From Thiomargarita sp. (GTDB lineage: Bacteria; Pseudomonadota; Gammaproteobacteria; Beggiatoales; Beggiatoaceae): a stretch of 32,997 bases of DNA. The position numbers and the translations under genes are program-made. The notes under the pieces are model-generated. The model did no database searches. It was not told where the DNA came from and worked only from the letters and a program-made list of their open reading frames with translations. The DNA lies in NCBI GenBank assembly GCA_020721025.1, contig DYNO01000009.1:1-32997 (forward strand). Direction: 5' to 3'. Shown in pieces: positions 11,635-30,193 of this stretch; position 1 is the first letter of the stretch, and the number at the start of each line of letters is the position of its first letter.

Positions 11635-13737
11635 TTATCGGGAATAAAGTTCCATTTTATCGGGACGGGTATGAAGTGAGCAACGCTCCAAATAAATTTG
11701 CGCTACTTTGTCCGCAGGATTACACGCTAAAACTTGTTCAAATAGTTGTTTTGCGTCCGCGCGTTCATCGGAATGGTAGAGTACAAAACCTTGTTCAAAT
11801 TCAGAAAGTGTTTGTTGCTTCAATTCAATCATTTCTGGCATATCTGCATCAAAAATCTCATAAATAGTTACTTCTTCGGTTTTACCTTTTACCATGACGA
11901 CATCAATCAGGCGAATATGATATTGATAAAGATGTTGCAATTTGAGGTAGGTATGTTCGGTAATAAGTAACGGCGTGTGATAGACCTTGGTTAAACCCTC
12001 TACCCGTGAAGCCAAGTTCACTGCATCAGAAATGACTGTCCCTTCCATCCGATTTCGTCCGCCAATTGTGCCTAAAATCAATGGGCCCGTATTCAATCCA
12101 ATCCCAATTTTAACGATAGGCATCCCAATTTCAAGTAATTGTTGGTTGTAGCCGCGCAACGTTTTTAACATTGCAATCGAGCCAGATATTGCATCGTCGG
12201 CACTTAGGGGAAATAATGCCATTATTGCATCGCCAATGTATTTATCAATCACGCCACCATGTTGCAAAATCACCGGTTCCATCCGTCCAAAATAACTATT
12301 GAGAAAATCAAATGTTTCTTTGGGGGTCATTTTTTCTGATAACGAAGTGAAGCCGCGGATATCGCAAAACAAAATGGTCATTTCTTTCTTGGTGTGCTCA
12401 CCTAAATGGACATCGACAATGCTTTTTTTATCCAATAAACTCAGAAACTCGCGGGGCACAAATCGTTCATACGCCTTGTTTAACCGGAAGATTTCATACG
12501 CGGCTTGGGTGCGTTCTTCTTCCATCTGCTTACGAACGCTGATATCGCGCACGAAGGCGAAATCATACTCTTCCCCATTAAATTCAACAAAATTAACGGT
12601 TATCTCGACTGAAAAAATTTTACCTGATTTGGTACAATATTCTGACTCAAAACTAAATGTCCCTTCCAACCTCAACTGTTCCCAATGTTCCAACCATTTA
12701 CTCGCCGGAAAATGAATATCCAAATCATGAATTGTCATGTGATACAACTCATTATGCGAATAACCGAGCACCCGACTTGCCGCCTCATTCACGTAAAGCA
12801 AACGAGCATCCCTACCGACCCACAGTACAATATCACGCGCTTTGTCAATCGAAAAACGGGTTAAACGCAGTGTCTTTTCAGCTTCTTTGCGTTCCGTCAC
12901 ATCCTGAAATACCGTGATACCATAACCTATCTGGTTGTCGGAGTTAAAAATTGGCGTACTCCAACTTTCCAACCGCAACACTTTCTCGCCAATCCGCAAT
13001 TCCAAATCATCCGATGTCGCATTTTCGCCCTGTAAGGCACGCGCCAACGTGGTTTTTTCATACGGATAAACTTCATTCGTTCCCGCGATAAACATGCGAC
13101 GACCATCAACCATATCTCGCGCACTACATTCTAATGCCAACTCCTTGCCCAATAACACTTGCGCCTTACAATTAGCATACACGGGCTGTCCTGATGCGTT
13201 GACAATTCGTACACCCACCGGCATCGCTTCTAAAAATTGGGTCAACCGACTCTCATTTTCATGCAATTTTTTAATTAAATTCGCCTGCTCTTGTGCCAAT
13301 TGATGTAATTTTTCATGCTGTTGCATCAACTCCTGTTCTTGAAAATAACTACGCACCGCCTCCACCACGGTTAAACGTAAGTCTTCAGATTGCCAAGGCT
13401 TTGAAATATAACGATATAATCGTGCATGATTAATCACCCGTCCCACTGCGTCCAAATCAGCCTGACCGGTCAACATAATTTTTAACGTATGAGGAATAAT
13501 GGTGTGAATTTGTCGGAGTAGTTCATCTCCCTTAATATGAGGCATAATATAATCAGAAATAACGAGAGGAATTTGATAACCATCGCTCAACAAATCATTG
13601 ATGAGTTCCAAGGCTTCTTCCCCATCTTCGGCAATTTCTATCAGATATTTATCGGCTAATGCCTTTTTTAATTCAATTTTCAGACTATTGAGAATTGTTT
13701 GTTCATCATCCACGCAAATTATAACATATTTATCCAT
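11635..13737 (-). CDS. Response regulator receiver - PAS - class III adenylate/guanylate cyclase
   Basis: Receiver YVIICVDDEQTILNSL...PLVISDYIMPHIKGDELLRQI...ISKPW; PAS domains; CYCc domain MTILFCDIRGFTSLSEKMTPKETFDFLNSYF...YIGDAIMALF. Start set at MDKYVIICVDDEQ. Confidence 0.93.
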   Translation of the reverse strand: MDKYVIICVDDEQTILNSLKIELKKALADKYLIEIAEDGEEALELINDLLSDGYQIPLVISDYIMPHIKGDELLRQIHTIIPHTLKIMLTGQADLDAVGRVINHARLYRYISKPWQSEDLRLTVVEAVRSYFQEQELMQQHEKLHQLAQEQANLIKKLHENESRLTQFLEAMPVGVRIVNASGQPVYANCKAQVLLGKELALECSARDMVDGRRMFIAGTNEVYPYEKTTLARALQGENATSDDLELRIGEKVLRLESWSTPIFNSDNQIGYGITVFQDVTERKEAEKTLRLTRFSIDKARDIVLWVGRDARLLYVNEAASRVLGYSHNELYHMTIHDLDIHFPASKWLEHWEQLRLEGTFSFESEYCTKSGKIFSVEITVNFVEFNGEEYDFAFVRDISVRKQMEEERTQAAYEIFRLNKAYERFVPREFLSLLDKKSIVDVHLGEHTKKEMTILFCDIRGFTSLSEKMTPKETFDFLNSYFGRMEPVILQHGGVIDKYIGDAIMALFPLSADDAISGSIAMLKTLRGYNQQLLEIGMPIVKIGIGLNTGPLILGTIGGRNRMEGTVISDAVNLASRVEGLTKVYHTPLLITEHTYLKLQHLYQYHIRLIDVVMVKGKTEEVTIYEIFDADMPEMIELKQQTLSEFEQGFVLYHSDERADAKQLFEQVLACNPADKVAQIYLERCSLHTRPDKMELYSR

Positions 13738-13759
13738 AAATAATTTCAATATTACAATG

Positions 13760-13848
13760 GTTCGGACAGTTTTAAAATTGTATTTGAGTTTTAATCGGTT
13801 GACAAACGAAATCAATATTCCCAACTTATTGATTTTACGAAAAACTGC
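13760..13848. repeat. Family 2 repeat, copy upstream of the cyclase gene
   Basis: GTTCGGACAGTTTTAAAATT...AATCGGTTGACAAACGAAATCAATATTCCCAACTTATTGATTTTACGAAAAACTG resembles the 20626-20735 element. The right end is degenerate. Confidence 0.7.
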
Positions 13849-18790: not shown

Positions 18791-18959
18791 ACAAGTCAAA
18801 GATGCTAACTGATTGAACTAAATCTAAGTTACATTTTGAATTGCGTCACTCCTAAATCTACTGAAAATGATATTTGAACGGGATAACTCCCAGAAACGGC
18901 TATGGAATTTGAGATTCTATGGCGAGATTAACTTAAAATATAGGTGATATACATTGACC

Positions 18960-19457
18960 ATGCTTCAAAAAAAAGTATGTATGATAGGTGACTTTTCTGT
19001 GGGAAAAACCAGTTTAGTCTCGCGCTTTGTGAGACAATCCTTTTCTGAAAAATATCTCACCACTGTAGGCGTAAAAATTGATACAAAAATCGTGGAGTTA
19101 GACAAAGAGACGGTGAAATTAATTTTATGGGATATTGCCGGCAATGACGCACTCACCACCACCGCGATTTCTTATCTGCGTGGTTCGGCGGGATATTTGT
19201 TAGTTGTTGATAGTACAAGACTTCCTACATGGGAAAGCGCGCTGAATCTGCGACAGGCGGTTGCTGATCAAATTGGTGAAAAACCGTTCGTGATGCTATT
19301 GAATAAAACAGATTTGCAAGAACAGTGGGAATTAGATAAGGAACTGATTCAAAGCTATATTACGCAAGGATGGCATATTTTACACACCAGTGCGAAAACT
19401 GGCATGAATGTGGAAGAGGCATTTGCGACATTGGCGAATTTAATGCTGCAAGCTTAA
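18960..19457 (+). CDS. Rab/Ras-like small GTPase
   Basis: G1 GDFSVGKTS; switch I TTVGVKIDTK; G3 WDIAGND; G4 NKTDL; G5 TSAKTGMNVEEAF. The order and spacing are typical of the Rab/Ras superfamily. Confidence 0.93.
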   Translation: MLQKKVCMIGDFSVGKTSLVSRFVRQSFSEKYLTTVGVKIDTKIVELDKETVKLILWDIAGNDALTTTAISYLRGSAGYLLVVDSTRLPTWESALNLRQAVADQIGEKPFVMLLNKTDLQEQWELDKELIQSYITQGWHILHTSAKTGMNVEEAFATLANLMLQA

Positions 19458-19630
19458 AGCAAATTTGGGCAAGGTAAAAAAACATCTGGTCTATATTTTG
19501 CCTTGTCAGCGATATCGTCTGATTTACATTTTTTTGGTCAGCTCCAACGAGACAATAACCTGTTGATTAAGTTGAACTTTAACAACTGACCACCCATTTT
19601 TCTACTTTTTAAAAGTATAGGGAGAATTCC

Positions 19631-20071
19631 ATGAGTCTGACTATTCCTTTTGCGATTGCGCGTTATATTCGTTCTGTCTGGATGTCAAAAACTTCTATTG
19701 CCTATTTGCGTTTAGACAAAGAAGGGAATTTATTGGAATGGGGCGGAATGCTAGAATATTATGGCTTACAAGATTTGCGGGTAGGGCAGGCAGCAATTGA
19801 GCAAATTAGTTTTTTAGAAGGGATGTTCCCAGTAGAAGAGCCCGAAGTTTTGGAATTCTTGCGCACTGGCAGTGGACGCAGTGCCCATATTCACTTGGTT
19901 CCTTATGACGAAGGAACTTGGGTAATTTTGTTTGATGCCACTTCAGAGCATGATAAACAACAATATACGCAACAACGGCTGAATGAATTATCATTATCGG
20001 CTTATCGACAAACACAAGCCATTGAACAAATGAGAAATCAGCTCATCGAACCCCAATTAATCAAAAAATAA
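19631..20071 (+). CDS. Small PAS-like protein encoded directly after the Rab-like GTPase
   Basis: 146-aa ORF with a ribosome-binding-like GGGAGAATTCC before ATG. Motifs TSIAYLRLDKEGNLLEWGGMLEYYGLQDLRVGQ...IHLVPYDEGTWVILFDATSEHDKQQYTQQRLNELSL resemble a PAS domain plus coiled linker. Confidence 0.7.
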   Translation: MSLTIPFAIARYIRSVWMSKTSIAYLRLDKEGNLLEWGGMLEYYGLQDLRVGQAAIEQISFLEGMFPVEEPEVLEFLRTGSGRSAHIHLVPYDEGTWVILFDATSEHDKQQYTQQRLNELSLSAYRQTQAIEQMRNQLIEPQLIKK

Positions 20072-20398
20072 AAGGTTATAGAATGATTTCAAATCGTTTG
20101 ATTTGTTCAACGCGATGTCGATTTATTTCCTTGAGGATGCAACAATGATATTTTCAGAATAATTATAAATATTTCTTAAAATCAATTGGTTGCATCTCAA
20201 TTCGATAATTTTTCAGATTTTAACTTTTTTTATATCCATGTTGTATCAACTTGCTACATTTTGCTACGATTTTTCATCTCACCGCGCCAAATTTACCCGC
20301 ATTTCCAAGATTAAAAATTGTGTCCCGCTTTCTGCCCAACAGTTGAACGAATTACGCGAGAATCGCACCATCCGAATTCAAAAGAGCAATCAATTCCA

Positions 20399-28869: not shown

Positions 28870-29976
28870 TTAAGCAGTGTAATTGTTCAGATTAATTGCG
28901 GCATTTAAGTCACGATCAATCACAAACCCACAAGCATCGCATTCAAAAATACGATCCTTCAAAGTTAGGATTTTCTTGACTTGTCCGCAATTTGAGCAAG
29001 TTTTACTGCTTGGGAAGAATCTATCGGCAATCACGACAATGCAATTTCTTAAGACTGCTTTGTATTCAATGAATTGCCGCAGCATTCCGAACCCAACATC
29101 TGCAATGGCACGGCTCAACTTTCTGTTTTTCATCATGCCTTTGACATTTAAATCTTCGATAACGATTCTATCAAAGGTTTTCGTCAGATAATCAGAGAGT
29201 TGGTGCAGTATTGCTTCACGTTGTCTTGCAATCAAAAAGTGGAGTTTCTGAATCTTTAGCTTGGCTTTCGCATAACCATTCGATCCCCTCACTTTTCGAG
29301 ATAAACTTCTTTGTAACTTCCGCAACTTACGCAAATTGTTTCTCAACAATCTGCTGTTTTCAAAAACTTCGCCATTACTCAATGTTGCCAATGACTTAAT
29401 CCCAACATCCACGCCAACAGACGGCTGCCGATTAACATCTTTTGGGTCATATTCATCGGTTTCGACTAAAAACGACGCAAAATACTTTCCTGCTCGTTTT
29501 GAAATGGTCACTCGTTTGAGTTTGCCGCCAAAACGAATCGGTTGACGCATATCTATCCGAGTTTTCAACTTTTCGATCCGTAACATTTTGTTTTTAACGT
29601 CAAACTTCGCAGAATCACGAATAGAAAAGCGGTCTCTGTCGCCACGCTTCTTAGGCTTAGGATAGCCCGGATTCTTACTTCCTTGCCGAACTTTACGAAA
29701 GAACTGTGTAAAAGCGGCATCCAAATCATCAATAACATTACGAGTTATTACCGATGAAACTTCACTATACCACGAAAATTCCACCCGTAGAACTTTCATG
29801 TAGAATTGATAACCAGCATCTTTTGTCCATTTGAAAATGTAATGTCCATCAGCATCTTGCTGACTAAACCACGCCCGCATGTGATTCCAACAATGCCGAT
29901 AATGACCACAGGCTTTATTAAGGTAATCAACCTGATCGGGAGTGGGTCGCAATTCTACTTTATGTGCCAGTAACAT
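28870..29976 (-). CDS. tnpB: TnpB, RNA-guided endonuclease of the IS605/IS1341 type
   Basis: RuvC-like motifs VGVDVGIKSLATLSNG, RIVIEDLNVKGM, IDRDLNAAINL; zinc ribbon CSNCGQVKK...CDACG. N-terminus MLLAHKVELRPTPDQVDYLNKACGHYRHCWN. Confidence 0.95.
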   Translation of the reverse strand: MLLAHKVELRPTPDQVDYLNKACGHYRHCWNHMRAWFSQQDADGHYIFKWTKDAGYQFYMKVLRVEFSWYSEVSSVITRNVIDDLDAAFTQFFRKVRQGSKNPGYPKPKKRGDRDRFSIRDSAKFDVKNKMLRIEKLKTRIDMRQPIRFGGKLKRVTISKRAGKYFASFLVETDEYDPKDVNRQPSVGVDVGIKSLATLSNGEVFENSRLLRNNLRKLRKLQRSLSRKVRGSNGYAKAKLKIQKLHFLIARQREAILHQLSDYLTKTFDRIVIEDLNVKGMMKNRKLSRAIADVGFGMLRQFIEYKAVLRNCIVVIADRFFPSSKTCSNCGQVKKILTLKDRIFECDACGFVIDRDLNAAINLNNYTA

Positions 29977-30193
29977 AAAAATCCTGTAAATAAATGGCAA
30001 CCTAAGTTATCTGTTGTCAACTGTTATGGTAACAGGACGGAGCATCTCGCAAACCAAGTTGAGTCAAGCGTCATTTTTAGTCGTAATAGTAGCATAAACT
30101 TGAGGTGGTGGTGAGTTAATTGCTGTTATGGTGTGAAGGCGAAATTATTGATGTGGGGCTGCATGGTGAGTAAAAATTTGTTTTAAATTAACC

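Follow-up and report, generated by a model that had tools for sequence, protein, structure and literature searches.

A Rab-like GTPase and a kinase-less PAS-like protein in Thiomargarita sp. as part of a Group 1 Rup system with a predicted longin/roadblock-fold partner

Background

Group 1 Rup GTPases were described computationally by Wuichet and Sogaard-Andersen (2014, PMC4316618). They are very similar to eukaryotic Rab, Ran, Ras and Rho proteins and lack the G3 glutamine; none had been characterised as of that study, and no later characterisation of a member was found in the literature searched. Their partner genes encode a coiled-coil protein, a protein with an unknown domain, a transmembrane helix and an OmpA domain, and an output protein whose N-terminal region carries an invariant glutamine (PMC4316618). 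This glutamine was proposed to act in trans where the GTPase has no Gln61 in cis (PMC4316618).

Other systems also pair a Ras-like GTPase with a roadblock- or longin-fold protein. MglA is a small bacterial Ras-like GTPase whose partner, MglB, has the roadblock/longin fold. In the conservons of Streptomyces (CvnA-D), a GTPase, a histidine kinase and a roadblock-fold partner form one signalling unit (PMC4316618). Eukaryotic Rab proteins are served by longin GEFs such as TRAPP and Mon1-Ccz1. The geometry of GTPase binding on roadblock/longin dimers is conserved, and the families are thought to be archaeal in origin (PMC10933270).

We analysed a stretch of 32,997 nucleotides from Thiomargarita sp. 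(the window), for which a preliminary description had proposed that a Rab/Ras-like GTPase and a small PAS-like protein encoded beside it form a two-gene switch.

Results

The GTPase of the window

The features of the locus are as follows.

18960..19457, + strand: GTPase gene, 165 aa from ATG; Pfam Ras match at 5.6e-32; Group 1 Rup (Rab/Ras-like)
18993..18995, + strand: Phe codon of the P-loop (GDFSVGKT), Ras Gly12 position; Phe in 81/81 homologues
19143..19145, + strand: Asn codon at the Ras Gln61 position (WDIAGN), from the alignment of GTPase homologues
19631..20071, + strand: putative stand-alone Rup-partner N-terminal domain, 146 aa, from 46-57% identity to the N-termini of ~515-aa kinase ORFs beside the GTPase gene in relatives, a PAS model and Foldseek
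19973..19984, + strand: Gln115-x-x-Asn118 of the QQxxNE motif in the C-terminal helix, from the domain alignment
20072..20383, + strand: gap ahead of a rubredoxin gene, without HisKA, HATPase or REC trace

The Rab/Ras-like character of the GTPase was borne out by the Pfam match and by all of the motifs quoted for it (GDFSVGKTS, TTVGVKIDTK, WDIAGND, NKTDL and TSAKTG), and its top PDB sequence matches were Rab1B and Rab8A (E~4e-24). The reading frame spans 18954-19457 (167 aa) if a TTG start is used; the ATG start at 18960 (MLQKK) agrees with relatives. Orthologues at 65-75% identity are present in 27 of 37 same-family genomes, the window's own counted in.

Asn at the Gln61 position and the absence of a C-terminal cysteine, both noted previously, were confirmed. 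The protein ends in NLMLQA, without the prenylation Cys of eukaryotic Rabs. Among 59 homologues with the WDxAG pattern, the Gln61-equivalent residue was Asn (16), Thr (15), Ser (13), Ala (6), Lys (4), Gly (2), Glu (2) or His (1), and never Gln (0/59). Gln occurs at this position only in the cyanobacterial loci L166 and L167 (WDIEGQ).

In the window, the GTPase gene has the PAS-like gene and an exonuclease gene as neighbours, and no Robl_LC7 (MglB) gene is coupled to it. It differs from MglA in this and in its Rab-type G3 motif (WDxAG); true MglB-like proteins are encoded elsewhere in the genome (C210, C278). No RNA families or tRNAs were found within the window. A 376-aa ORF at 28870-30000 (- strand) looks, in our own reading, like an IS605-type OrfB/TnpB protein.

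The PAS-like protein and its conserved glutamine

The 146-aa gene lies on the same strand as the GTPase gene, behind a 173-bp upstream gap of its own. Pfam and NCBIfam profiles gave zero matches for its product. An alignment-based AlphaFold model (mean pLDDT 89) has PAS topology and ends in a long C-terminal helix. In the PDB, Foldseek's top matches were either PAS domains or sensors that contain one, led by 3k3c (6.8e-5). Of the curated PAS profiles, PAS_9 matched two of the 88 homologues, with 1.6e-4 as the best value, and the window protein was unmatched. The PAS-like fold suggested earlier is supported by this model and by the Foldseek matches, and we consider the protein a predicted PAS fold plus signalling helix.

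The most conserved residues of the domain are Gln115 (96 of 99 domains), Leu62, Gly64 and Asn118 (89/99, the rest His). Gln115, Asn118 and Glu119 lie on the helix that follows a DAT (DIT-like) motif. All three are present in the window copy, which retains 19 of 20 near-invariant positions and ends 27 residues past Glu119. The near-invariant glutamine is of the kind noted in PMC4316618, which favours the partner role (sensor, GAP/GEF or effector) suggested for the protein, and we infer that Gln115 is the same residue as the invariant Gln reported for Rup partners in 2014.

Conservation of the gene pair

Adjacent co-occurrence in related genomes, offered in the preliminary description as a check, was examined and found. 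A homologous PAS-like domain is encoded just downstream of the GTPase gene, on the same strand, in 76 of 81 loci, which were picked by GTPase similarity, are not phylogenetically independent and often come from metagenome-assembled genomes. The two genes often overlap or lie within about 50 bp of each other, and the adjacency spans Gammaproteobacteria and Cyanobacteria. Of the five remaining loci, L112 has the domain slightly further off, L149 ends soon after the GTPase gene, and the cyanobacterial loci L169, L173 and L179 had no match to the domain.

In same-family genomes, the 146-aa protein aligns, mostly at 42-57% identity, with the N-terminal ~135 residues of ORFs of ~515 aa located behind the GTPase orthologue. 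When scanned, these ORFs contained HisKA, HATPase_c and Response_reg domains and are thus hybrid histidine kinases. A single-sequence search with the window protein missed some relatives, as well as the cyclase fusion described below; profiles built from alignments recovered them, and with an iterated profile 131 ORFs across the fetched loci proved to carry the domain. The notion that the full-length homologues are cyclases was rejected, as most are hybrid kinases, though cyclase fusions occur too. At three Symploca (cyanobacterial) loci, L174, L181 and L185, the gene immediately behind the GTPase gene encodes the domain fused to a class III cyclase, in place of a kinase. At locus L091 (6679-6687), the GTPase and kinase genes share one frame, with just a TAG and one codon between the GTPase gene and the kinase ATG.

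Loss of the kinase

The two-gene switch could not be upheld as a self-contained unit: the PAS-like protein, which in relatives forms the N-terminal part of a histidine kinase, has no kinase part in the window. With all full-length kinases as queries, tblastn matched the N-terminal domain alone, and a kinase remnant was absent downstream of 20071. As the assembly is 92% complete, it might lack a kinase copy. In the domain tree, many forks of which are weakly supported, the window copy sits among kinase N-termini and on a long terminal branch (0.73). As judged from homology, it is a kinase-less derivative of a kinase N-terminus, by clean loss of the kinase. The stand-alone pair L115/L128, L156 and a clade of stand-alone paralogues encoded upstream of the GTPase gene in several relatives all branch elsewhere in the tree. 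Because these copies branch apart, kinase-less forms appear to have arisen several times.

A second locus with a cyclase output

A second contig of the same genome, C207, encodes a 254-aa coiled-coil protein and an 822-aa OmpA protein. A third gene, divergent from these, encodes a 360-aa protein in which the PAS-like domain is fused to a class III cyclase. The fusion carries the motif QQHNEL, and the QQxxNE helix is common to both domain copies. By our own reading of its sequence, the cyclase retains the residues expected of an active adenylate cyclase and is a predicted maker of cAMP. A profile search at E<=1e-6 found exactly two proteins with the PAS-like domain in the genome, that of the window and this fusion. 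At another locus (L189, 4258-5340), a domain-class III cyclase fusion is likewise divergent from coiled-coil and OmpA genes. Second domain copies of ~360-400 aa are present in about 20 family genomes, and those examined carry a cyclase domain.

A link of the window pair to cyclic-nucleotide signalling had been suggested earlier. The link gains support, by a different route from the one then given, because the genome's only other domain copy is fused to the C207 class III cyclase. The window itself contains, 5 kb from the GTPase gene, a 729-aa protein (11635-13824, - strand) in which a receiver and PAS-like parts accompany a class III cyclase. This protein was rejected as the output, since the Rup-partner profile did not match it.

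From these features of sequence and partner genes, we assign the GTPase and the PAS-like domain to a Group 1 Rup system, a larger and already described set to which the presumed self-contained switch would belong. As in that system, the genome has a GTPase without the G3 Gln, a coiled-coil protein, a domain-TM-OmpA protein and an output N-terminus with the conserved glutamine. Two features set it apart: the N-terminal region is encoded as a separate protein, and the one output domain to which this region is fused is a class III cyclase, whereas kinases and diguanylate cyclase/phosphodiesterases are typical in PMC4316618. Moreover, in this Beggiatoaceae-type (Thiotrichales) genome the set is split between C191 (GTPase and 146-aa protein) and C207, unlike the single neighbourhood of many relatives, and we do not claim an intact operon. 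Because the C207 genes do not adjoin the GTPase gene, the two loci are linked in this genome by homology only.

A predicted longin/roadblock fold in the OmpA-anchored partner

In the 822-aa protein of C207, the domain previously called unknown is joined through a transmembrane helix to a peptidoglycan-binding OmpA domain. A model of the first domain, built from 56 relatives, has an alpha-beta2-alpha-beta3-alpha core. Foldseek matched it to AP sigma, TRAPP, Ragulator, MglB (including MglB with MglA) and Mon1-Ccz1, with 37 matches at <=1e-3; among them were 7b6d, 3cue and 5ldd (the TRAPP and Mon1-Ccz1 comparison). We therefore predict a longin/roadblock fold for this domain, as in Rab GEFs and MglB. 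The Robl_LC7 profile matched 1 of the 56 domains, weakly (0.0077). Alignment of the domain with the family's MglB-like proteins by hhalign was also weak (probability 17.5, P 0.0014; unrelated controls 0.2-3.9). The earlier statement that the GTPase lacks a roadblock partner holds for the adjacent gene, which is not Robl_LC7, but not for the OmpA-anchored partner if the predicted fold is correct.

The distribution of this protein follows that of the GTPase. In a survey of 274 gammaproteobacterial genomes, the GTPase was present in 21, each of which (21/21) also has the longin/OmpA protein; of the others, 3 carry only the latter and 250 lack both. In the same-family set, 26 genomes have both, 2 the GTPase only, 1 the longin protein only and 29 neither. 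The longin/OmpA gene lies upstream of the GTPase gene in 60 of 81 loci. One genome that is 99% complete (G023, locus L104) has the kinase partner and the longin/OmpA protein, and the GTPase was not found in it. In the open-access literature, we did not find the longin/roadblock fold assigned to a Rup partner; subscription journals lie mostly outside this coverage.

Relative to the conservons, the kinase of Rup relatives is a hybrid with a PAS-like N-terminus, the predicted roadblock-fold domain is part of an OmpA-anchored protein, and the set in the window genome has no kinase. The likeness to eukaryotic Rabs and their longin GEFs comprises a Rab-like G domain and a predicted longin-fold partner. 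It is a likeness of fold, with no sequence-family match, and here the prenylation Cys and any membrane-traffic context are absent.

Discussion

On balance, we think it probable that this gene pair is one half, the switch, of a split Group 1 Rup system, with its regulator and its cyclase output on C207. The GTPase would be the switch. The state of the envelope, sensed by the wall-anchored coiled-coil/longin protein, would change the nucleotide state of the GTPase. The longin/roadblock-fold domain of the 822-aa protein, together with the 254-aa coiled-coil protein, probably controls this state. The PAS-like domain would be the part of the output proteins that faces the GTPase and in most relatives would drive the hybrid histidine kinase. 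In the window genome, the GTP-bound GTPase may engage the PAS-like domain of the C207 cyclase and so alter cAMP output, and the free 146-aa domain could compete for, tune or end the cyclase signal. The proposal takes the composition of the system, its conservation and co-occurrence, the loss of the kinase and the retained motif as observations, and the folds as predictions. GTPase binding, the direction of the signal, nucleotide cycling, GAP or GEF activity and cAMP are parts of the proposal itself.

Might the PAS-like protein instead be a GAP, in which Gln115 on the C-terminal helix replaces in trans the missing Gln61 of the GTPase? This is possible, though we lean against it. Nearly all GTPase homologues lack Gln61 and have Phe at position 12, Gln115 is retained across the domains with stand-alone forms included, and a trans glutamine is what was proposed for Rup partners (PMC4316618). 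However, at the cyanobacterial locus L166 a GTPase with Gln61 goes along with a retained Gln115; the few informative cases thus give no sign of compensation. Furthermore, Gln115 lies within the helix that leads from PAS to output, where its conservation may reflect dimer signalling, and a conserved Arg finger was not seen.

Rather unlikely, in our judgement, is that the free domain pairs with or titrates the PAS-like domain of the C207 cyclase, as a hetero-dimer or decoy, and does not touch GTP hydrolysis. The free copy and the cyclase fusion are the only two in the genome and both have the QQxxNE helix, and several relatives have a free paralogue alongside a full kinase copy. The two copies are, however, distant in the tree, and mixed pairing is therefore uncertain.

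We also considered whether the window protein is what remains of a histidine kinase, now decaying and without function. The long terminal branch and the loss of the kinase are consistent with decay. The window genome is the sole genome of its genus, and the stand-alone pair L115/L128 gave a dN/dS of 0.61, not significantly below 1. Nevertheless, the frame is intact, has its own start codon and keeps the near-invariant positions, and after simulated neutral change of 0.2 substitutions per base about 1% of runs retained an open frame. Copies without the kinase are found repeatedly, in separate lineages; among them, the clade of upstream paralogues is under strong purifying selection (dN/dS 0.11-0.18), so the domain can persist as a free protein. 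Decay therefore seems improbable to us. An independent small-ligand PAS sensor that is next to the GTPase by chance would fit the PAS fold and the separate upstream gap, but is very hard to reconcile with an adjacency conserved in both Gammaproteobacteria and Cyanobacteria.

A broader reading would make Group 1 Rup systems the bacterial equivalent of an entire Rab cycle, in which a peptidoglycan-anchored longin/roadblock protein exchanges or positions the GTPase and a PAS domain both contributes the catalytic Gln in trans and gates a kinase or cyclase, the window protein being a free GAP. We offer this as speculation and regard it as doubtful.

Conclusions

The Group 1 Rup system itself has been known since 2014 (PMC4316618); what is new here is the predicted longin/roadblock fold for the domain of its OmpA partner. 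The free 146-aa domain of Thiomargarita sp. is a small, soluble candidate partner for binding and GAP assays with the kinase out of the way, and if it were indeed a free GAP, PAS would be a new GAP fold. As a near-obligate partner, the predicted longin/roadblock domain would supply the missing regulator of Group 1 Rup systems and may bear on the origin of Rab-longin regulation.
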